21,721 nucleotides of DNA from a virus, in IMG/VR virus record IMGVR_UViG_3300042691_014458, positions 1 through 21,721 of that record; one strand, written 5' to 3'. The notes under the pieces were generated by a model. The model searched no databases and had not been told where the DNA came from. It worked only from the letters and a program-made list of their open reading frames with translations. Made by a program: the position numbers and the translations under genes. Within the stretch, counting starts at the first letter, position 1. Each line of letters starts with the position of its first letter. This document shows, in pieces, positions 3,272-14,910 of this stretch.

Positions 3272-6200
3272 ATGCCATTAACACAACTAACAGGCGGATT
3301 AATTGAACCAGGATCAATTCAACAGTCCGATTTAAGTACAGAAGTAGCAGCAAACATATCTTCTGCTTTTGCTGCGGCTAACTCCGCAGCATCTTACGCC
3401 AATCAGGCATTTTCTGCGGCGAATACAGCATCATCGGGTAGCATAGATAGTTACGCTAGAGATACAGCGAATAGTGCCGCTTTTTATGCTAATAGTGCAT
3501 TTAACGAAGCGAATTCGGCCTTCAATAAAGCCAATACTTCTGTTATAGCAGGTAGTTATGCAAACTCAGCATACAGTCAGGCCAACAATGCAACTACAAA
3601 TGCTGGAGTGGCAGACACTAAAGCTGTAAATGCGGGATCATATGCTAACTCTGCGTATAGTCAAGCTAATACCGCCACAACAAATGCATCTACAGCTGAT
3701 GGTAAAGCAGTAACAGCTGGTAACTATGCGAATACAGCATACAGTCAAGCAAACACCGCAACTATTAATGCTGCAACAGCCGATAGTAAAGCAGTAAGTG
3801 CTGGAGAATATGCTAATACTGCCTTTGGTCAAGCCAATACGGCCGTAACCAATGCTGCTACAGCTGATGATAAAGCTGTAAGTACTGCATCATATTCTAA
3901 TTCAGCATTTGGTGCCGCTAATAGTGGTTCATCTTATGCCAATTCAGCATATACTCAAGCTAATACAGCAACAACAAATTCAACTACAGCTGATCAAAAG
4001 GCCACAAGTGCTGGAGAATACGCTAACTCAGCCTATGGTCAATCTAATACCGCAATCACTAATGCATCTACCGCTGATGGTAAGGCTGTAACAGCTGGCA
4101 TTTATGCCAACGCTGCCTTCAGTGAGGCCAACACTGTTGATTCTAAAGCAGTAACAGCTGGTAACTATGCCAACTCGGCATTTGGTGTTGCGAACACTGC
4201 AACTACAAATGCTGCGACTGCCGACAGCAAAGCAGTATCATCCGGAGTTTATGCTAACAGTGCTTATGGTGCTGCTAACACAGTAGATTCTAAAATTATT
4301 GATGTTGGTGGTTATGCTAACTCAGCATACACTCAAGCAAATACCGCAGATAGTAAAGCAGTAACATCTGGTAACTATGCTAACTCAGCATATACTCAAG
4401 CAAATACATCTGACAGTAAAGCGGTAAGTGCTGGTAGTTATGCTAACTCAGCTTACACACAAGCAAATACAGCAACTACAAATGCAGCAACTGCCGACAG
4501 TAAAGCTGTAAGTGCAGGATCATATGCTAATTCGTCCTTTAGTGTGGCTAATACAGCAACTACAAATGCTGCTACAGCTGATGGTAAAGCTGTTGATGCA
4601 GGACAATATGCTAACTCTGCTTATACTCAAGCAAACACTGCAACTACAAATGCTGCTACAGCTGATGGTAAAGCAGTAACAGCTGGCAGTTATGCTAATG
4701 CAGCGTTTGGTATTGCCAACACAGCAGATGTCAATTCTATTTCTGCTGGTAACTATGCTAATGCTGCTTTTGCTGTGGCCAATAGTGGTATTACCGATTC
4801 TTGGGCTAGAGATACTGCAAACGCTGCATCTAGTTATGCCAATTCAGGATTTTATACTGCTAATAGTTCTGGTCTTTATGCTAATGCAGCATTTGCGGCC
4901 GCAAATACAGGAGTGCCAGATACTTTAGCTAGAGATACTGCTAATGCGGCATCAAGTTATGCCAATTCTTCTTTTAATACAGCGAATACTGCTGACAGTA
5001 AAGCAGTGAGTGCTGGTAGTTATGCTAACTCAGCTTTTGGTGCAGCAAACACAACAGCAATTTACGCAAACGCTGCATTTGCTGATGCCAACACCAAATT
5101 TAGTTCATCGGGCGGCACAATCTCTGGTAACGTTACTATCCTCTATGATCTTAGTGTCTTAGGAAATGTTAGTTTTACAGGAAATGTTACTTCTGTAACT
5201 GTCACTGGTAATAGTGGTCAATTTTTTGGTGAAGCGAACGGGCATAACGCATTATATGCTGGTATTCCTGTTGGATATGACTATCAGCCACATACAGTAT
5301 TTCAAGCATCAACAAATGAGGATAATTACTCTCAAATAAACATTCAAAACATTAATCCTGGAAATAACGCATCATCTGATTATGTTGCTACGGCCGATAA
5401 CGGTACTGAAAATGATACTTATATTGACATGGGTATTGCTAGTAGTCTGCATGCCGATCCTGAATTTACGTTAGTTGGTCCAAATGATGGTTACTTGTAT
5501 GTGTCTGGCAATACAGTCACGGGCGGTGGTGGCCTTGTAATTGGTACACTTTTAGAAAATGATGTCATATTTACTGCTGGTGGCATGAATGAAGAAAATG
5601 AACAAATGCGTATCATTGGTTCAAGCAATACGATTAACATTCGTTCTAATGTAGATTCAAGTATCGCAAAGAGTGTTTTATTGGGACCAATTGCAAACCT
5701 TCATATTACAGGTGGTTCAAATGATGATTATATTAGAACCGATGGTTCAGGTAATCTGACATTTGCAAATTTAACTTCCGCAAATGTAATTAAAGTTTTA
5801 TATGATACAGCTAACACTACTAGTCAAACAGCTGTAAGTTCTAGTTCATATGCAAATGGCGCTTTTGCTGCAGCTAATACAGCAGACCAAAAAGCTGTAA
5901 CGGCTGGAACATACGCCAATGCGGCATTTGCAGCCGCTAATACAGGCGCCAGTAGTTCAGACCAATATGCTAGAGACACTGCTAATGCTGCATCTAGTTA
6001 TGCCAATTCATCTTATAGTCAAGCAAACACAGCCACAACTAATGCTGCTACAGCTGATGGTAAAGCTGTAACAGCTGGATCATATGCTAATGCTGCCTTT
6101 GCTTTAGCTAATACCTCAGATAGTAAAGCAGTAACAGCAGGTAACTATGCTAATTCAGCTTATGGTCAAGCTAATACAGCAACTACCAATGCTACTACTG

Positions 6201-7507
6201 CTGACTCTAAAGCTTTAACGGCAGGTGATTACGCTAACTCATCCTATACTCAAGCTAATACTGCTACAACAAATGCATCTACAGCTGATGGTAAAGCTGT
6301 AACAGCTGGTAACTATGCTAATAGTGCTTATGGTCAAGCTAATACTGCTACGACTAATGCTGCAACTGCTGATGGTAAAGCTGTAACAGCAGGATCTTAT
6401 GCTAATGGAGCTTATACTCAAGCTAATACCGCAACTACTAATGCTGCTACAGCTGATGGTAAAGCAGTAACAGCTGGTAACTATGCTAATAGTGCTTTTG
6501 CTGCTGCGAATACTGCTACAACAAATGCATCTACAGCTGATTCTAAAGCTGTTGATGCTGGTAACTATGCTAACTCTGCATTTAGTGTTGCTAATACGTC
6601 AGACAGTAAAGCAGTAACATCTGGATCATATGCTAATTCAGCTTACACGCAAGCAAATACAGCAACTACCGATGCTGCTACTGCTGACAGTAAAGCAGTA
6701 ACAGCTGGTAACTATGCTAATTCAGCTTATACTCAAGCTAATACAGCAACTACCAATGCTACTACTGCTGATCAAAAGGCCACAAGTGCTGGATCATATG
6801 CTAATTCAGCTTATGGTCAAGCTAATACTGCTACAACAAATGCATCTACCGCTGATGGTAAGGCTGTAACAGCTGGTAACTATGCTAACTCGGCATTTGG
6901 TTCAGCTAATACTGCCGACAGTAAAGCAGTAACATCTGGATCATATGCTAATTCGGCATTTGGTGTAGCAAATACCGCAGATAGTAAAGCTGTAACAGCT
7001 GGATCATATGCTAATTCATCATTCACTACCGCTAACACTGTAACATCAGCGAGTTTGTATGCTAATGGTGCTTTTGCTTCTGCAAACACTCGACTAGCTA
7101 CAGCTGGTGGTACAATTTCTGGTGATTTAACAGTAACAGGATTCACCACTTTACAAGAAGTAACAGAAGTTTTAAGTACATTAACTGGTGCTACAGGAAC
7201 AGTAACTCATAACTTAACTGATGGTTCTGTTTTTTATCACACAAGTGCTGCAGCAAACTTTACTGCGAATTTTACAAATGTACCAACCACAACAAGTCGA
7301 TCTATTACAGTTACGATTGTTATAGTACAAGGTGCAACAGGATATATACCAAATGCCGTACAAATAGATGGCGCAGCACAAACAATTAATTGGGCTGGCG
7401 GTGCAGCACCCACACCAACAGCAAACAAAACTGAATTTTATTCATTTAATTTATTAAGAATAGGATCTGCATGGTCTGTATTTGGTTCTGAGATTACATT
7501 TGGTTAA
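3272..7507 (+). CDS. Long tail fibre with alanine-heptad coils
   Basis: This 1411-residue fibre protein has clear modules. Residues 1-25 form an N-terminal tip (LTGGLIEPGSIQQSDL). Residues about 30-610 and 853-1272 are repeats in strict multiples of seven, such as AVTAGSY-ANSAYTQ-ANTATTN-AATADSK, with Ala (or Ser/Val/Ile) at positions 1 and 4 of nearly every heptad, as in a long thin alanine coiled coil. Residues about 611-850 are a beta-rich domain opening with GGTISGNVTI. Residues about 1276-1411 open with the matching GGTISGDLTV and end in FGSEITFG. Lambda Stf has a comparable Ala-rich shaft. The likely role is trimeric host-recognition fibre. The Shine-Dalgarno is weak. Confidence 0.85.
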   Translation: MPLTQLTGGLIEPGSIQQSDLSTEVAANISSAFAAANSAASYANQAFSAANTASSGSIDSYARDTANSAAFYANSAFNEANSAFNKANTSVIAGSYANSAYSQANNATTNAGVADTKAVNAGSYANSAYSQANTATTNASTADGKAVTAGNYANTAYSQANTATINAATADSKAVSAGEYANTAFGQANTAVTNAATADDKAVSTASYSNSAFGAANSGSSYANSAYTQANTATTNSTTADQKATSAGEYANSAYGQSNTAITNASTADGKAVTAGIYANAAFSEANTVDSKAVTAGNYANSAFGVANTATTNAATADSKAVSSGVYANSAYGAANTVDSKIIDVGGYANSAYTQANTADSKAVTSGNYANSAYTQANTSDSKAVSAGSYANSAYTQANTATTNAATADSKAVSAGSYANSSFSVANTATTNAATADGKAVDAGQYANSAYTQANTATTNAATADGKAVTAGSYANAAFGIANTADVNSISAGNYANAAFAVANSGITDSWARDTANAASSYANSGFYTANSSGLYANAAFAAANTGVPDTLARDTANAASSYANSSFNTANTADSKAVSAGSYANSAFGAANTTAIYANAAFADANTKFSSSGGTISGNVTILYDLSVLGNVSFTGNVTSVTVTGNSGQFFGEANGHNALYAGIPVGYDYQPHTVFQASTNEDNYSQINIQNINPGNNASSDYVATADNGTENDTYIDMGIASSLHADPEFTLVGPNDGYLYVSGNTVTGGGGLVIGTLLENDVIFTAGGMNEENEQMRIIGSSNTINIRSNVDSSIAKSVLLGPIANLHITGGSNDDYIRTDGSGNLTFANLTSANVIKVLYDTANTTSQTAVSSSSYANGAFAAANTADQKAVTAGTYANAAFAAANTGASSSDQYARDTANAASSYANSSYSQANTATTNAATADGKAVTAGSYANAAFALANTSDSKAVTAGNYANSAYGQANTATTNATTADSKALTAGDYANSSYTQANTATTNASTADGKAVTAGNYANSAYGQANTATTNAATADGKAVTAGSYANGAYTQANTATTNAATADGKAVTAGNYANSAFAAANTATTNASTADSKAVDAGNYANSAFSVANTSDSKAVTSGSYANSAYTQANTATTDAATADSKAVTAGNYANSAYTQANTATTNATTADQKATSAGSYANSAYGQANTATTNASTADGKAVTAGNYANSAFGSANTADSKAVTSGSYANSAFGVANTADSKAVTAGSYANSSFTTANTVTSASLYANGAFASANTRLATAGGTISGDLTVTGFTTLQEVTEVLSTLTGATGTVTHNLTDGSVFYHTSAAANFTANFTNVPTTTSRSITVTIVIVQGATGYIPNAVQIDGAAQTINWAGGAAPTPTANKTEFYSFNLLRIGSAWSVFGSEITFG
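3540..5095 (+). repeat. Heptad-coding repeat block 1
   Basis: Degenerate direct repeats of 63 or 84 bases (21 or 28 codons) encode the alanine-heptad shaft. Every unit is a multiple of 21 bases, so unit gain or loss keeps both reading frame and coil register. A segment near 3985-4100 is nearly identical to 6765-6880 in block 2. Confidence 0.85.
5810..7090 (+). repeat. Heptad-coding repeat block 2
   Basis: A second array of the same 63/84-base units follows the central beta domain. Neighbouring units here are more alike at the nucleotide level than many in block 1 (for example around 6040-6080, 6370-6400 and 6435-6475), suggesting recent duplication or gene conversion. Confidence 0.85.
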
Positions 7508-10673: not shown

Positions 10674-10976
10674 ATGCAATTAAAACCAGGAACATTTTGT
10701 CCTATAATGAAAGAAGAATGTGTACAGTTTAAATGTGCATGGTTTACTAAAGTTGAAGGTTATGATATCAATACAGGTAAGCAAGTTGAAGAATGGAATT
10801 GTGCTATGACTTTTATTCCTATGTTACTGATTGAAAATTCAGGAATGTCTCGTCAAACTGGTGCAGCTGTTGAAAGTTTTAGGAATGAGATGGTGAAATC
10901 TAATGAAGAAACTCAGAAGATATTCTCCAATATGTTGTCAATGAATCCTGAAAACAATACAAAATTACTTAAGTAA
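10674..10976 (+). CDS. Conserved cysteine-containing phage protein
   Basis: This 100-residue protein starts at the ATG at 10674, behind AAAGGAGATTATATT; an upstream ATG at 10653 would add seven residues and lacks a site. Four cysteines lie in FCPIMKEECVQFKCAW (Cys9, Cys16, Cys21) and EWNCAM (Cys43), which could hold a metal or iron-sulfur cluster. RQTGAAVESFRNEMVKSNEE forms a C-terminal helix. I recognise the pattern from T4-like phages of aquatic bacteria, where the function is unknown. Its end overlaps the convergent GIY-YIG-like gene by 12 bases. Confidence 0.75.
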   Translation: MQLKPGTFCPIMKEECVQFKCAWFTKVEGYDINTGKQVEEWNCAMTFIPMLLIENSGMSRQTGAAVESFRNEMVKSNEETQKIFSNMLSMNPENNTKLLK

Positions 10977-11369
10977 ATGTTTTTTTGTAATCTTACAAGA
11001 AACCCATTGATTGTAGTAAGATTCATTCAATAGTGCGTGGCGAGAGAATATCTCCCACGTTTCGTAATAAGACAATTCTGATTTAGTTTTACAGAGGTGA
11101 AGTATCTCTCTTACGTATTGATCTTCACCATTTTTTTTAACTTCTTCTTGTAGTAATAAATTAGAACCCCAGTATGTCATCCAATCAGACGATACTCGGG
11201 TTTTCTTTTTCTTACCTTTAACTTGTGTAGTCTTAGATTTGGTGAAGAATTTTTTACCAATATATTTACGACCACTTTGAGTATGTGTGATTAGATATAC
11301 AAACCCAAAATGGCCGTCTATATTTTCTTCGGTAAATTCTTCACCTGTATTATGAAAATACCAGGTCAT
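10965..11369 (-). CDS. GIY-YIG-like nuclease domain protein
   Basis: This 134-residue protein contains FGFVYLITHTQSGRKYIGKK (21-40), matching the GIY-YIG fold core (here VYL...YIG). A basic segment KVKGKKKKTRVSSDW precedes helices with SYYETWEIF, whose glutamate may be the metal ligand. Members of this type recur in T4-like phages and are sometimes annotated as Seg-like homing endonucleases, though this one is short and lacks an obvious DNA-recognition domain. Its ATG overlaps the stop of the zinc-ribbon gene (ATGA). Confidence 0.75.
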   Translation of the reverse strand: MTWYFHNTGEEFTEENIDGHFGFVYLITHTQSGRKYIGKKFFTKSKTTQVKGKKKKTRVSSDWMTYWGSNLLLQEEVKKNGEDQYVREILHLCKTKSELSYYETWEIFSRHALLNESYYNQWVSCKITKKHLLK

Positions 11370-11515
11370 TCGTCATCATCACCAAAATCCTCAGTTTCAA
11401 TTAAATATTCACCGCAAAATGGACAGTAGTGTGGATCATCTTCACATTTACTTTCATCATATTTAATTGTAAACTCTGAGGAACATGCCCCACAAGTGTG
11501 TTTCAACGAAGCCAT
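11366..11515 (-). CDS. Small zinc-ribbon protein, 49 residues
   Basis: The ATG at 11515 overlaps the stop of the thermonuclease gene (TAATG) and the frame ends in an ATGA overlap with the GIY-YIG-like gene, so it is embedded in a coupled series. The peptide has two zinc knuckles, CGAC (8-11) and CPFCG (31-35), and an acidic tail ending GDDDE. This is a compact rubredoxin-like zinc ribbon. The partner is unknown; the fixed place beside a GIY-YIG-like gene suggests it might assist that protein, which is inference. Confidence 0.75.
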   Translation of the reverse strand: MASLKHTCGACSSEFTIKYDESKCEDDPHYCPFCGEYLIETEDFGDDDE

Positions 11516-11964
11516 TATTGACACCAAGATTGTTTGGCTTCACCAAAATATTCCCGAGCGAAACCGTTTTGAATCAACATACTACGGAGACTTTGACCAT
11601 CTAGAATCATATCACCCAAGACACGACCACCAAATTTATCCCAACCATAGAGTGTGACTTGTCGTTTAATGGACTTTGCAACTAGATTTTTAGTAAACAC
11701 AGTTGCTGCTTGACCACGTTGATCTTCACTTGGACATTGAGCTCTATGGCCTTTTTCTGGCGTATCTACACCATAGATACGAACTGCTAATTCAGGTTTT
11801 AATGGCAAAGGTAAAAAGGGTGCTGCAATCACTACAGTATCACCATCATTTACCCGTACAATTTGTGCATCATACGTTACACCTTTTGCTGTTTTGTCAG
11901 CATAAACATTTCCTATACCAGCGAAAGATAATAGACCAATTAAAAGTATTTTTGTTAATTTCAT
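11515..11964 (-). CDS. Exported thermonuclease (SNase family)
   Basis: This 149-residue staphylococcal-nuclease-like protein has an N-terminal signal peptide (KLTKILLIGLLSFAG..., likely cut after YA at about residue 22). All key residues of the family appear: DGDT (Asp40, Asp42), VRIYGVDTPE (Arg62, Asp67, Glu70) and FGGRVLG (Arg114), with the helix RGQAATVFTKNLV between them. It should hydrolyse DNA and RNA with Ca2+ in the periplasm or outside the cell. Two cysteines (77 and 148) could form a disulfide there. AAGGAG precedes the ATG. The mature domain is compact but complete. Confidence 0.88.
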   Translation of the reverse strand: MKLTKILLIGLLSFAGIGNVYADKTAKGVTYDAQIVRVNDGDTVVIAAPFLPLPLKPELAVRIYGVDTPEKGHRAQCPSEDQRGQAATVFTKNLVAKSIKRQVTLYGWDKFGGRVLGDMILDGQSLRSMLIQNGFAREYFGEAKQSWCQ

Positions 11965-11973
11965 TCTTTCTCC

Positions 11974-12294
11974 TTAAATATTAAAACTTTCACCACAACC
12001 ACATCGATTCTTTTCTAAAGAATTTATAAAATCAAAACCTTCATTGAGTCCATTTCTTTTCCAATCTATTTCCATTCCGTTCAGATAAGGAATATGTTTT
12101 GGGTCAACAAAAATTTTAACACCGTTAGATTCGTATATAGTATCTGTATCCGATACACTATCAACATATTCTAAGGTATAGGCCAAACCACTGCAACCTG
12201 TGGTTCTAACACCAACCTTAATACCTAATCCTTTTCCTCTTTTGTTTAAAGAGTTTAAAGTTTTGCGAGATGCGAGTTCAGTCATTGTGATCAT
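11974..12294 (-). CDS. IscA/HesB-type iron-sulfur carrier
   Basis: This 106-residue A-type carrier has all three cluster-binding cysteines: Cys34 in TTGCSGLAY, and Cys98 and Cys100 in RCGCGESF. The length is that of IscA/ErpA/SufA. Such proteins deliver Fe-S clusters or iron to apoproteins, and similar genes are known as auxiliary metabolic genes in T4-like phages of aquatic bacteria. The first ATG is supported by AAGGAG at a good distance; a second in-frame ATG three codons on lacks its own site. It leads a four-gene series with the nuclease, zinc ribbon and GIY-YIG-like protein. Confidence 0.88.
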   Translation of the reverse strand: MITMTELASRKTLNSLNKRGKGLGIKVGVRTTGCSGLAYTLEYVDSVSDTDTIYESNGVKIFVDPKHIPYLNGMEIDWKRNGLNEGFDFINSLEKNRCGCGESFNI

Positions 12295-12313: not shown

Positions 12314-12320
12314 TATTTAG
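12314..12320 (-). promoter_or_regulatory. Candidate late promoter CTAAATA before the IscA-type gene
   Basis: CTAAATA on the minus strand lies 19 bases before the IscA-type ATG and directly after the terminator of the upstream phosphate unit, a natural place for a new promoter. It matches the motif before the structural block at 1748. Confidence 0.45.
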
Positions 12321-12323
12321 ACG

Positions 12324-12349
12324 AAAAAAAAGCCTCTTACGAGGCTTTT
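12324..12349 (-). terminator. Strong intrinsic terminator after the porin gene
   Basis: On the minus strand GCCTC, a GTAA loop and GAGGC, extended by A/T pairs to a 9-bp stem, are followed by eight T residues. It ends the pstS-porin unit. The plus-strand reading ends in only four T residues and would be weaker. Confidence 0.85.
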
Positions 12350-12366
12350 AATATAACAAAAAAATT

Positions 12367-13773
12367 TTAGAAACTTAATTGACTTCTAAACATAATTGCT
12401 TTTTCACCATTTACACGACTACCAGAACTACCAACTAATGCATCAAACTTTGTATCTACGTAGTTGAGCATGAAACGTAGATTGTCAGTGCAAAACCAAG
12501 TTAGACCGTATGTCATAGCAGTAGCACGATTTGACTTGCCTGTTGCAACGGATACATCACTTGCATCAAACTCACTCATACGTACACCAACCTGCCACGC
12601 ACCACGACCACCTTTGTCGATTGGATTATTTGGTTTAATCCAACCAAACGCACCATCTTTGTATGCATGTGATTCGCCAGTTAAATTATAAACTGCTTGT
12701 ACATAGTACCCTTTGATTTCTTGGTCACTACCTGTTGCAGCATCATATTTAAAATTGAACTGTTCGCCTTGAACTTTGAAACCGTTATATGCAAACGCTG
12801 CTTCTAATCCTTGGCGTGTTCTTGTAGTAGCACCACTCAATGCGGAACCTGTAAACCAACCAGACTGCATACGAGATTCTGTTCTACCACTGGCTGGTGC
12901 AACGCCACTTTTAATTTCACCTGTGCTGTATGCTGCACCCAAGTGTGCAGTGTATGCTTTGCTGCCTGTTAGTTCAGCAATATTAGTTGTTACACGACCA
13001 ATATAATCAAGTCCATCGAACTCTGCGCTCTTATTGGATTTGCCTCTACTTGCTGCTATAGCATATGTAAGGCCAGGTTTTGGCACACCATGTAACATGA
13101 AACCAGTTTCTTTTGCAGGAATAAATTCAGTATCATTCTGACCAATCAAACTACGTTCCATAAAATCTAGATTGTTTGAACTTGTCATTTGTTCAAGACT
13201 AAATGGCATCTTGAATAAGCCAAATTGAAATTGCATTTCTGGATTTGCTGCATAGTTTACCCACATCTCATCTGCTGTTGATGATGTAGAACTAAAGCCA
13301 TCACTTGCACCAAAGTTTGCTAACAATTGATATTTGAAGTCTTTTGCAAATTGTCCACGAACACCAAATCTTGCACGGCGAACTTCGGCTAAGTTTTGAT
13401 ACGAATCCGTGGTTTGGCCGACACCATAATCTGGTGTGTATTGGCGATAGTCCATATGAATTCGACCTGTAAACTGTGCCGTATTGTTTCCATCTTTGCT
13501 TTTGAGTCCGATTCCATTTTCTGTGACTGAACCATCGTTTGCTCTTGCTTGTCTGTATTTGACCGAATCACTAACATCTTTGTCGATTCTTTGTTCTGCA
13601 AACTTTTTGTTTTCTTCTTTTTCTTCATATGCATTGAGTTTTGATTCATATTCTTTTTGAGTGATTATATTCTTCTCTCTTAGAATATTCAATGTATCTT
13701 TATACTCATCAGCATATGCAGGAATTACTGCTGCAAGTGCAACTACGATAGATAATTTTTTAAATAGTTTCAT
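12367..13773 (-). CDS. Outer-membrane porin, OprO/OprP-type (phosphate-selective family)
   Basis: This 468-residue beta-barrel protein has a signal peptide (KLFKKLSIVVALAAVIPAYA, cut before DEYKD). A helical, charged periplasmic segment follows (about 22-70, REKNIITQKEYES). The barrel then begins at GRIHMDYRQY and AEVRRARFGVRGQF, motifs of the phosphate-selective porin O/P family, and continues in amphipathic strands to the C-terminal SQLSF. A terminal Phe is the usual BAM recognition signal. Family members form trimeric channels for phosphate or polyphosphate. Selectivity here is inferred from family and from the neighbour: the start is 9 bases after the pstS stop, and a strong terminator follows. 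Confidence 0.85.
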   Translation of the reverse strand: MKLFKKLSIVVALAAVIPAYADEYKDTLNILREKNIITQKEYESKLNAYEEKEENKKFAEQRIDKDVSDSVKYRQARANDGSVTENGIGLKSKDGNNTAQFTGRIHMDYRQYTPDYGVGQTTDSYQNLAEVRRARFGVRGQFAKDFKYQLLANFGASDGFSSTSSTADEMWVNYAANPEMQFQFGLFKMPFSLEQMTSSNNLDFMERSLIGQNDTEFIPAKETGFMLHGVPKPGLTYAIAASRGKSNKSAEFDGLDYIGRVTTNIAELTGSKAYTAHLGAAYSTGEIKSGVAPASGRTESRMQSGWFTGSALSGATTRTRQGLEAAFAYNGFKVQGEQFNFKYDAATGSDQEIKGYYVQAVYNLTGESHAYKDGAFGWIKPNNPIDKGGRGAWQVGVRMSEFDASDVSVATGKSNRATAMTYGLTWFCTDNLRFMLNYVDTKFDALVGSSGSRVNGEKAIMFRSQLSF

Positions 13774-13782
13774 AATTTATCC

Positions 13783-14805
13783 TTATTTCCAAATTGGGTT
13801 GTTGTCAGGACCTTTTAAGTCTTTTTTCCAATTGTCCTGATTTAATTTAATAACTGATTGTGGTAAATGAACATATTCTAGTTCTTCACTCATCTTGGCA
13901 CCATTCTTCCAACTCCAATCAAAGAATTTCAAAACTGCACGACCTGTCAAACTATCTGCTTGTTGTTTGTGCATGAGAATGAAACTTGCGCCTGTTGCTG
14001 GCCATGCTTCTTTACCTGTTTGCCATGTGAGCAACAAATACATTCCTGGTGCATTAGCCCAATCTGCGTTTGCTGCTGCGGCTTTGAATGAATCGTCACT
14101 TGGTTGTACAAAAACACCATCACGATTTTTTAATTGTGCGTGTGCAATTTTATTTCTTTTTGCATATGCATATTCTACATAGCCAAATGCACCTTTGATT
14201 CTTTGTACTTGAACAGCAACACCTTCATTACCTTTACCACCTACACCAACTGGCCATTTTACTGCTGTGCCTTCGCCAACAGTTTTTGCAAAATCAGCGT
14301 TTGCTTTACCTAAAAAGTTTGTCCAAATAAATGTAGTGCCTGAACCATCTGCACGATGAACAACTGTGATTGCTAATGCTGGTAGATTGACGCCAGGATT
14401 CAAATCAACAATTGCTTTATCGTTCCACTTTGTGATTTTACCAAGATGAATGTTTGCAATAACTTCTGGTGTTAATTTTAATTGACCTGCTGCTACACCG
14501 TCAAGATTGAATACTGGTACTACACCGCCAATTACTGCTGGAAATTGCACTAGACCTTCTTTGTCTAATTCTTCAGGCTTCAATGGCATATCACTTGCAC
14601 CAAAGTCAACTGTTTTTGCTTTGATTTGTTTGATACCACCACCAGAACCGATTGATTGATAATTCAGACCAATGCCAGTGGATGCTTTATATGCTTCTGC
14701 CCACTTAGCATAGATTGGAAATGGAAAAGTCGCACCAGCGCCAGTTAATTCTGCTGCGGATGCGACTCCTGTAAATAACAATAAAGATAAAAGTAACTTT
14801 CTCAT
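13783..14805 (-). CDS. pstS: Periplasmic phosphate-binding protein PstS
   Basis: This is the high-affinity phosphate-binding protein that feeds the host PstCAB transporter. The precursor has 340 residues with a signal peptide (RKLLLSLLLFTGVASA, cut before AELTGAG). Family landmarks are TGAGATFPFPIYAKW, SGGGIKQI, VDFGASDMPL, RADGSGTTFIW (phosphate-binding loop), GKGNEGVA and GAFGYVEYAYAK. Similarity to E. coli PstS runs the whole length. I chose the ATG at 14805, with TATAGGAG before it, over an upstream ATG at 14844 that would put 13 extra residues before the signal peptide. No pstC, pstA or pstB is present, so it must work with host components. The porin gene follows in the same unit. Confidence 0.93.
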   Translation of the reverse strand: MRKLLLSLLLFTGVASAAELTGAGATFPFPIYAKWAEAYKASTGIGLNYQSIGSGGGIKQIKAKTVDFGASDMPLKPEELDKEGLVQFPAVIGGVVPVFNLDGVAAGQLKLTPEVIANIHLGKITKWNDKAIVDLNPGVNLPALAITVVHRADGSGTTFIWTNFLGKANADFAKTVGEGTAVKWPVGVGGKGNEGVAVQVQRIKGAFGYVEYAYAKRNKIAHAQLKNRDGVFVQPSDDSFKAAAANADWANAPGMYLLLTWQTGKEAWPATGASFILMHKQQADSLTGRAVLKFFDWSWKNGAKMSEELEYVHLPQSVIKLNQDNWKKDLKGPDNNPIWK

Positions 14806-14821
14806 GATTTCTCCTATAAGA

Positions 14822-14839
14822 ATTGTGCCTTTGCACAAT
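14822..14839. repeat. Perfect inverted repeat in the pstS leader
   Basis: ATTGTGC and GCACAAT are separated by four bases, 17 bases before the pstS ATG. It could be an RNA hairpin in the leader or a small operator. There is no T run, so it is not a terminator. Confidence 0.5.
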
Positions 14840-14877
14840 ATCACACTTATCTATGAAATCATGATCCTTAAACGGGA

Positions 14878-14910
14878 TTGTAACAAAACCGTCATCGGAT
14901 TGTCATAAAT
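14878..14910 (+). promoter_or_regulatory. Pho-box-like triple direct repeat upstream of pstS
   Basis: Three 7-base units TTGTAAC (14878-14884), CCGTCAT (14889-14895) and TTGTCAT (14900-14906) are spaced by 4 bases each, giving the 11-base period of PhoB sites (CTGTCAT with 4-base spacers). Two units match the consensus at six of seven positions and the first at four. The site is in the 108-base gap before pstS. The repeats read on the plus strand, opposite to pstS, which is the reverse of the E. coli pstS promoter. I see no convincing -10. Confidence 0.6.

Follow-up and report, generated by a model that had tools for sequence, protein, structure and literature searches.

The viral DNA analyzed here (hereafter the window: 21,721 nucleotides (nt), IMG/VR virus record IMGVR_UViG_3300042691_014458, positions 1-21,721), probably a record fragment, encodes on its minus strand a periplasmic phosphate-binding protein, PstS, followed by an outer-membrane porin of the OprO/OprP type. 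The pair is a phage-carried auxiliary gene set of bacterial origin that appears to leave the rest of the pathway to the host, and it is a real, widespread new form of phage phosphate acquisition. We interpret it as a two-gene operon for phosphate acquisition, carried by a T4-like phage, probably of Burkholderiales, that would boost phosphate uptake through the porin and the host PstCAB and is most likely tied to PhoB; we give this interpretation a probability of roughly 0.75.

The pstS-porin pair and its layout

A preliminary description of this DNA had placed pstS and the porin gene 9 nt apart with a terminator downstream, and both details were confirmed (the terminator reads 12349-12328). 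The features of the region are as follows, with protein lengths in amino acids (aa).

13783-14805, minus strand: pstS, periplasmic phosphate-binding protein, 340 aa, with a signal-peptide-like N-terminal stretch (NCBIfam profiles, PDB matches)
13774-13782, minus strand: 9-nt intergenic gap between pstS and the porin gene (window sequence)
12367-13773, minus strand: Porin_O_P (OprO/OprP-type) outer-membrane porin, 468 aa, an N-terminal helical part plus a 16-strand barrel (PF07396, fold model)
12328-12349, minus strand: intrinsic terminator 3' of the porin gene (9-pair stem and T run)
14822-14839, minus strand: short 5' leader hairpin upstream of pstS, ATTGTGC-AAAG-GCACAAT (sequence)
14878-14906, plus strand, reversed relative to pstS: PHO-box-like array of three 7-mer half-sites (TTGTAAC, CCGTCAT, TTGTCAT) at 11-bp spacing (host PHO model)
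14877-14906, minus strand: sigma70-like promoter match that overlaps the PHO half-sites (ATGACA, 18 nt, TACAAT, extended -10; promoter scan)

The ATG at 14805 gives the 340-aa PstS, and the mechanical open reading frame (ORF) call begins upstream, at GTG 14844. The ribosome-binding region of the porin gene looks like the pstS stop codon TAA plus GGAT. The terminator scan returned three such sites in the region against 1.5 expected, and sigma70-like matches were not enriched (11, against 10.7 in shuffles). In some related phages the leader hairpin has other letters and is retained through paired changes, as judged by eye.

PstS and porin identity

PstS scored above the equivalog cut-offs of NF008171 (2.3e-125; 418 bits against 339) and TIGR00975 (8.1e-112; 373 bits against 205), and its top PDB PstS matches lay between 1e-108 and 3e-115. 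The phosphate-binding pattern of PstS is given in an excerpt of PMC10987575 as T, GSGxG, S/D and RxxxSGT/D; in our alignment of 16 rows, the phosphate-binding residues T26, G53-S54-G55-G56-G57, S71-D72, R151 and S155-G156-T157 are invariant. Among 50,697 phage records the window PstS matched 90, all at <60% identity and 79 of them cyanophages by name. Cyanophage PstS is a different lineage, with 33-45% identity to the window protein among the matches listed.

The porin belongs to PF07396 (Porin_O_P; 3.4e-50, 171.8 bits against a cut-off of 20.9) and matched OprO at 1.9e-17 and OprP at 1e-16. It had no PHROG match, and a tblastn search of the 50,697 phage records gave none at 1e-3. Its predicted model (mean predicted local distance difference test score 81.5, predicted template modelling score 0.74) combines a barrel of 16 strands, each of at least 8 residues, with an N-terminal helical part. 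Among solved structures it was closest to OprO (Z 40.9 over 359 residues, 2.2 Å root-mean-square deviation) and OprP (Z 40.6, 365 residues, 2.4 Å), the next family being PorB at Z 25.7. A general porin of the OmpC/PorB type was rejected on this ground (Z ≤26 against about 41).

The equivalents of the OprP constriction residues R34, R59, R60, D94 and R133 are all retained in 28 of 28 phage porins and in 20 of 20 beta-proteobacterial relatives. Among 20 other PF07396 proteins (10 of the 30 loci gave no ORF under the filter), all five residues occur in one, at least four in eight, and R59 in 18; because single residues such as R59 are family traits, only the set of five is telling. OprP Y62 and Y114 correspond to R135 and K188 in the window porin, so the constriction looks at least as basic as that of OprP. 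The preliminary description had named the loss of a basic constriction and a grouping with general porins as grounds for abandoning its proposal, and neither was found.

Spread of the pair among phages

IMG/VR was scanned with the porin (the best 80 of 110 relatives) and with PstS (the best 80 of 293 relatives), which together with the window locus gave 148 loci, several contigs being counted twice. Both genes were present on the same strand, with pstS first, at 145 of these loci; the exceptions are two loci with pstS and no porin (L114, L148) and one porin at a contig edge (L068). With both genes in the same order at 145 of 148 related loci, the pair is beyond chance, and the phage origin and the pairing proposed at the outset stand. 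Of the 62 distinct pairs, 44 have a gap of exactly 9 nt, mostly TAAGGAT. The protein set leaves out 13 of the 145 loci, those whose porin has a GTG start or lies >70 nt away by the ATG rule.

A chosen set of 40 larger records (31 to 365 kb, many of them fragments) was searched for phage and permease markers. The T4 major capsid protein Gp23 was found in 15 of them (14 over the cut-off), including 11 of the 13 above 130 kb, and the Gp23 scores fall into two groups, which points to at least two T4-like lineages with the pair. The carriers are T4-related viruses, probably of water-dwelling bacteria. The PF00528 permease domain (PstC/PstA type) was detected in none of the 40 records, against 14 of 14 control genomes. 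Because many of the records are fragments, this is evidence, not proof, of the reliance on a host permease that the preliminary description had proposed.

Bacterial origin and the host Pho island

The closest bacterial porins, at 47-54% identity, come from genomes labelled Burkholderiaceae, Oxalobacteraceae, Polynucleobacter and Noviherbaspirillum, and more distant relatives (≤40% identity) from Methylophilaceae and others. Among 16 searched genomes with porin relatives, five encode a near-complete PstS with 74-76% identity to that of the phages, and another has a 43-residue piece. We built trees by a quick method, with Shimodaira-Hasegawa-like approximate likelihood ratio test (SH-aLRT) support only. 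The 28 phage porins form one clade (SH-aLRT 99), as do the 16 phage PstS of the paired type (SH-aLRT 100) in a tree that excludes four rows without the start motif (L256, L278, L279, L283) and the second phage PstS group, from the distant-query scan. Both phage clades adjoin the same genome group (G001, G002, G005 and G006 in both trees), so the compared proteins share a bacterial donor clade. The phage host is probably within Burkholderiales, and the apparent donor group (Polynucleobacter-like) consists of culturable bacteria.

Since both genes are of bacterial origin and the window and many relatives are fragments, the genes might be passengers, either recent functionless host DNA or host contamination of viral contigs. 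We regard this as very improbable, as the phage clades stand apart from the bacterial ones and median dN/dS (the ratio of nonsynonymous to synonymous substitution rates) is about 0.1: 0.12 in 40 porin sequences and 0.10 in 23 pstS sequences, in sets restricted to 468-aa porins and 340-aa PstS. On grounds of conservation the passenger reading is refuted. Contigs of up to 364 kb, with Gp23 in 15 of 40, also speak against it, and the window neighbours are phage genes, namely the ribonucleotide reductase subunits nrdA and nrdB, thyX, primase and tail-like genes. Contamination in particular was rejected on the Gp23-bearing contigs and the phage-specific porin and PstS clades.

Within the family Burkholderiaceae a PF07396 match was present in only 4 of 40 genomes and PstS in 39 of 40. 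In one Burkholderiaceae genome (G002, locus L315) some 11 kb separate the porin from pstS, both lying in a phosphate island with the order porin, ppx, phoX, an Acetyltransf_5 protein, a PlcP-like metallophosphoesterase, a glycosyltransferase resembling monogalactosyldiacylglycerol (MGDG) synthase, ppk and pstS, then phoR-, phoB- and phoU-like genes. No other observation speaks as strongly for a phosphate role of the porin lineage as the position of this relative in a Pho island. The island contains counterparts of the phage porin, pstS and PlcP-like genes, and PHO-like boxes precede both the porin and pstS of G002; the island differs in keeping porin and pstS apart, whereas they are adjacent in the phages.

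There was no sign of the transfer of a ready-made pair from a bacterium: no strong PstS lay near the 29 bacterial porin loci (≤6 kb on each side, several contigs being shorter). One of these loci had a weak PstS match (L163, E 6e-5). In another genome (G066) PstS lies about 640 bp from a Porin_O_P gene in divergent orientation, and at locus L287 a weak, divergent PstS-like ORF lies near the porin, an ORF that the whole-genome search of its genome (G076) did not list. Closeness of pstS and porin is thus not unknown in bacteria, on the evidence of G066 and, weakly, of L287; close pairing in the same direction was observed in phages only, among the loci examined.

The island also bears on what the porin conducts. 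It may pass pyrophosphate, polyphosphate or organic phosphate anions instead of orthophosphate, as an OprO-like channel would: OprO is its top structural match, tied with OprP, the R135 and K188 substitutions count in the same direction, and the host porin shares its island with ppx, ppk and phoX. The phage porin is paired with PstS, an orthophosphate binder, and we consider this alternative rather unlikely. It overlaps with the orthophosphate reading, because periplasmic phosphatases would still convert the other forms to orthophosphate.

PHO-box-like sites upstream of pstS

Host pstS promoters carry CTGTCAT-like half-sites with an 11-bp period and a -10-like hexamer about 10 nt behind. From 31 host promoter sites, with L254 and L283 excluded for want of a clear box, we built a PHO model. 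A site of at least 5 bits was present in 39 of 50 distinct phage pstS upstream regions, against 285 of 4905 control 130-bp windows (5.8%) from the same loci. The phages behind the 50 regions are related, so the cases are not independent of one another; loci in which the start of pstS is cut were excluded. The Pho-box-like site claimed upstream of the window pstS is present at 14878-14895 and, with 13.0 bits, is the top of all window positions on both strands, the next unrelated site reaching 9.4 bits; an overlapping second pair of half-sites, extending the array to 14906, scored 9.1 bits. PhoB control of the phage pair is most likely, judged from these sequence matches.

Bacterial porin genes show comparable sites. 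Of the 29 porin loci, 24 were scanned, and 20 of these have an upstream PHO site of at least 12 bits (15 forward, and 5 reversed that all belong to the nearest clade), with 2-8% of other windows at the same loci scoring as high.

Composite PHO-TAAATA promoters

In 36 of 86 distinct phage pstS upstream regions, as at L041, L035, L064, L400 and L408, a pair of TGTNAY half-sites directed toward the gene precedes TAAATA with a spacing of 11 nt (one case has 10 nt); at other spacings from 5 to 19 no composite was found in these 86 regions. The composites are divided equally between the paired set (18 of 50) and the distant-PstS scan (18 of 36), where the loci have no porin, or in a few cases none within view; this second set excludes L388-L394, L448 and L449. 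Across 35 records the composite pattern occurred 30 times, against 0 for a control pattern read backward. Six of these precede a calcineurin-like phosphoesterase gene and 24 are pstS sites; of the latter, two were opened and precede pstS, and 22 carry the letters of known pstS sites.

TAAATA resembles the T4 late promoter, and the evidence for a late-type role is mixed. In support of such a role, TAAATA occurs within 90 nt upstream of gp23 in 8 of 14 records and, around gp23 in seven records from both Gp23 groups, before 29 of 111 ORF starts against 8 of 1654 in-gene windows, a control of coding sequence that is less A+T-rich than gaps. Against it, the motif is missing from the other 6 of 14 gp23 upstream regions, and six records with a high-scoring Gp23 lack the composite (G200, G210, G221, G223, G224, G227). 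Records bearing the composite and records with TATAAATA at gp23 are largely different. In the window, TATAAATA had 0 matches against 2.5 expected and CTAAATA 3 against 5.75 expected. TAAATA could equally be a host -10.

Several observations weigh against a PhoB-tied phosphate operon with an OprP-type porin. When a distant host PstS was used as the query, 59 of 70 phage loci had pstS without a porin, and for 52 of these the downstream sequence reached ≥900 nt; since so many phages lack it, the porin is dispensable for phage pstS in general. One such locus (L453) has pstS directly followed by what appears by eye to be a secreted staphylococcal nuclease gene, as found behind the window pair, and an older phage pstS locus may therefore have acquired the porin later. 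Within the porin, loop L5 is shorter and does not keep the five arginines that complete the seven-step ladder of OprP: one or two of the five align, which ones differing between two alignments, and OprP K121 is Q195 in the window porin. R297, R301, R318 and R320 are invariant in the phage porin rows. At the promoter, 11 of the 50 phage upstream regions score <5 bits, only 17 of the 50 outscore every other 130-bp window of their locus, and the window array reads on the plus strand, against pstS, with a forward score of -4.0, so that a box directed toward the gene with a -10 about 10 nt behind is lacking in the window.

These points limit two of the initial proposals. The porin groups with OprO/OprP and keeps a basic constriction as predicted, without the L5 arginine ladder as such; with the five residues kept and the ladder not, it is best described as a Porin_O_P member with an OprP-type constriction, not as an OprP with a ladder. 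The Pho-box-like site exists in the predicted place and has the reverse orientation. Reversed boxes of at least 9 bits were also found in 21 of 33 Burkholderiaceae pstS promoters (L250-L254, L256-L283), against 2.5% of 323 control windows, and lie 58-61 bp ahead of a forward box in 9 of the 21. Because they are common upstream of host pstS and occur upstream of bacterial porins, the reversal in the window is no argument against a role of PhoB.

The pair might instead belong to an ordinary early or late phage operon in which the PHO-like sites are coincidental. The reversed window site, the overlapping sigma70-like match and the small share of top-scoring sites would fit such an operon, and read-through into the pair is possible because a gene lies closely upstream on the same strand: a methyltransferase gene in the window, and nrdB in 34 of the 62 distinct pairs (same strand, ≤3 kb, median 114 bp upstream). 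The enrichment over 4905 control windows, the single spacing of the composite, its absence in the backward-read control and the frequency of reversed boxes in host pstS promoters all speak against coincidence, and we consider this explanation unlikely.

A role for the porin in the envelope or the phage life cycle rather than in nutrition, whether as replacement of a receptor porin, a superinfection block or an aid to release, has a precedent in lambdoid phages, which encode porins that alter phage sensitivity. For the present porin we find it improbable in view of the OprO/OprP-type fold and constriction, the near-constant coupling to pstS, the PHO-like sites and the relatives in Pho islands.

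A PlcP-like phosphoesterase beside the pair

In some phages the pair is extended by a calcineurin-like phosphoesterase gene (for example L497:1540-2346, L472:653-1495 and L478:1542-2420), and among the 51 distinct pairs with ≥900 nt of downstream sequence it is the gene immediately 3' of the porin in 15; the closed two-gene unit first envisaged is therefore not general among phages. The window has no PlcP-like gene. At least 599 phage relatives of the phosphoesterase exist in IMG/VR, and the PHO-TAAATA composite, with 9-12 nt allowed, was found in 29 of 62 distinct upstream regions of these relatives. In Burkholderiaceae, 25 of 40 genomes have matches at 44-57% identity (E <1e-50), and in the G002 Pho island the gene adjoins the MGDG-synthase-like gene. 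Such a phosphoesterase-glycosyltransferase neighbourhood is, according to an excerpt of PMC8528852, the arrangement of PlcP-Agt lipid remodelling. The protein fell below LpxH cut-offs and matched LpxH structures only at 2e-5; we call it PlcP-like, a provisional name given by genomic context.

These observations allow a broader, tentative reading, to which we give slightly less than even odds. T4-like phages of Burkholderiales and relatives may carry a portable piece of the Pho island with pstS and the OprO/OprP-type porin; in some of these phages it would also include a PlcP-like phospholipase acting on host membrane lipids to release phosphate. Many of the phages would have this unit downstream of a hybrid promoter that places a host PHO box 11 nt from TAAATA, an element found also ahead of structural genes, and that would thereby let a late-type phage promoter respond to the phosphate state of the host as well. 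The mixed evidence on TAAATA slightly reduces the odds of the hybrid-promoter reading.

Comparison with known systems

Cyanophage pstS is described in a partial text of PMC10976474 as being under host PhoBR control in Kyanoviridae. It shares with the present pair the T4-like phage background, a host-derived pstS and the presumed use of the host Pst permease. In contrast, that text mentions no porin partner, and the host phylum differs if ours is correctly placed. Phages with pstS, and even with pstSCAB, are reported in an excerpt of PMC10987575.

Compared with Pseudomonas aeruginosa OprP and OprO (PDB 2o4v, 4rjw; partial texts of PMC3706956 and PMC4849052), the phage porin has the same 16-strand barrel and equivalents of R34/R59/R60/D94/R133; it differs in its low identity (24%), the shorter L5 without the five-arginine ladder, the extra basic R135 and K188, and in being phage-coded. 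Two phage proteins named "Phosphate-selective porin" in BFVD are distant from it: A0A8S5S2G8 has 16% identity and a template modelling (TM) score of 0.53, and A0A8S5QG53, a fragment, 21% and 0.26, both TM values normalised by the length of the window porin.

Neither a survey of phage phosphorus genes (PMC10987575) nor a Limnohabitans phage paper (PMC12195039) uses the word "porin" in its main text, and an excerpt of PMC9938194 has nothing on phage genes. Among the open-licence papers listed, we found no report of a phage pstS-porin pair, a phage phosphate porin or a phage PlcP.

Proposed mechanism and significance

In a phosphate-starved host, PhoB, or read-through from upstream genes, would drive transcription of pstS and the porin gene, the PHO-box elements near the promoter tying expression to host PhoB. 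The phage porin would then open an anion-selective, phosphate-type pore in the outer membrane and admit more phosphate, and the phage PstS would top up the periplasmic binding protein and feed the host PstCAB. Phosphate supply could in this way keep pace with phage DNA synthesis in the starved cell, to the benefit of the phage. The precedent for such a scheme is the cyanophage pstS controlled by host PhoBR (PMC10976474).

Phage pstS is a textbook phosphate auxiliary gene. The porin would add a second compartment to virus-driven nutrient uptake, and its coupling to pstS would imply that phosphate flux in infected cells is limited by the permeability of the outer membrane; that permeability is a phosphate bottleneck there, as the preliminary description had suggested, is a reasonable inference. 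The composite promoters of related phages offer a direct way to probe how lytic phages of hosts other than cyanobacteria link their transcription to the nutrient sensing of the host.

Neighbouring genes

Directly 3' of the terminator, the window encodes a HesB/IscA-like protein (11974-12294, minus strand; phrog_17776, unknown function), with CTAAATA at 12314-12320 upstream of the gene, which is present at 5 of the 62 distinct pairs. Two genes behind the porin lies a staphylococcal-nuclease-like protein with a signal-peptide-like start (11515-11964, minus strand), and 26 of the 62 distinct pairs have such a gene ≤3 kb away on their own strand; the protein could release phosphate from DNA. A SegE-type GIY-YIG homing endonuclease (10965-11369, minus strand), likewise on the same strand within 3 kb in 27 of the 62 distinct pairs, might aid the spread of the region. 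On the opposite strand, positions 3272-7507 encode a 1411-aa protein with many similar YANSAYxQANTATTNAxTAD-like repeats, which is probably a tail fibre.

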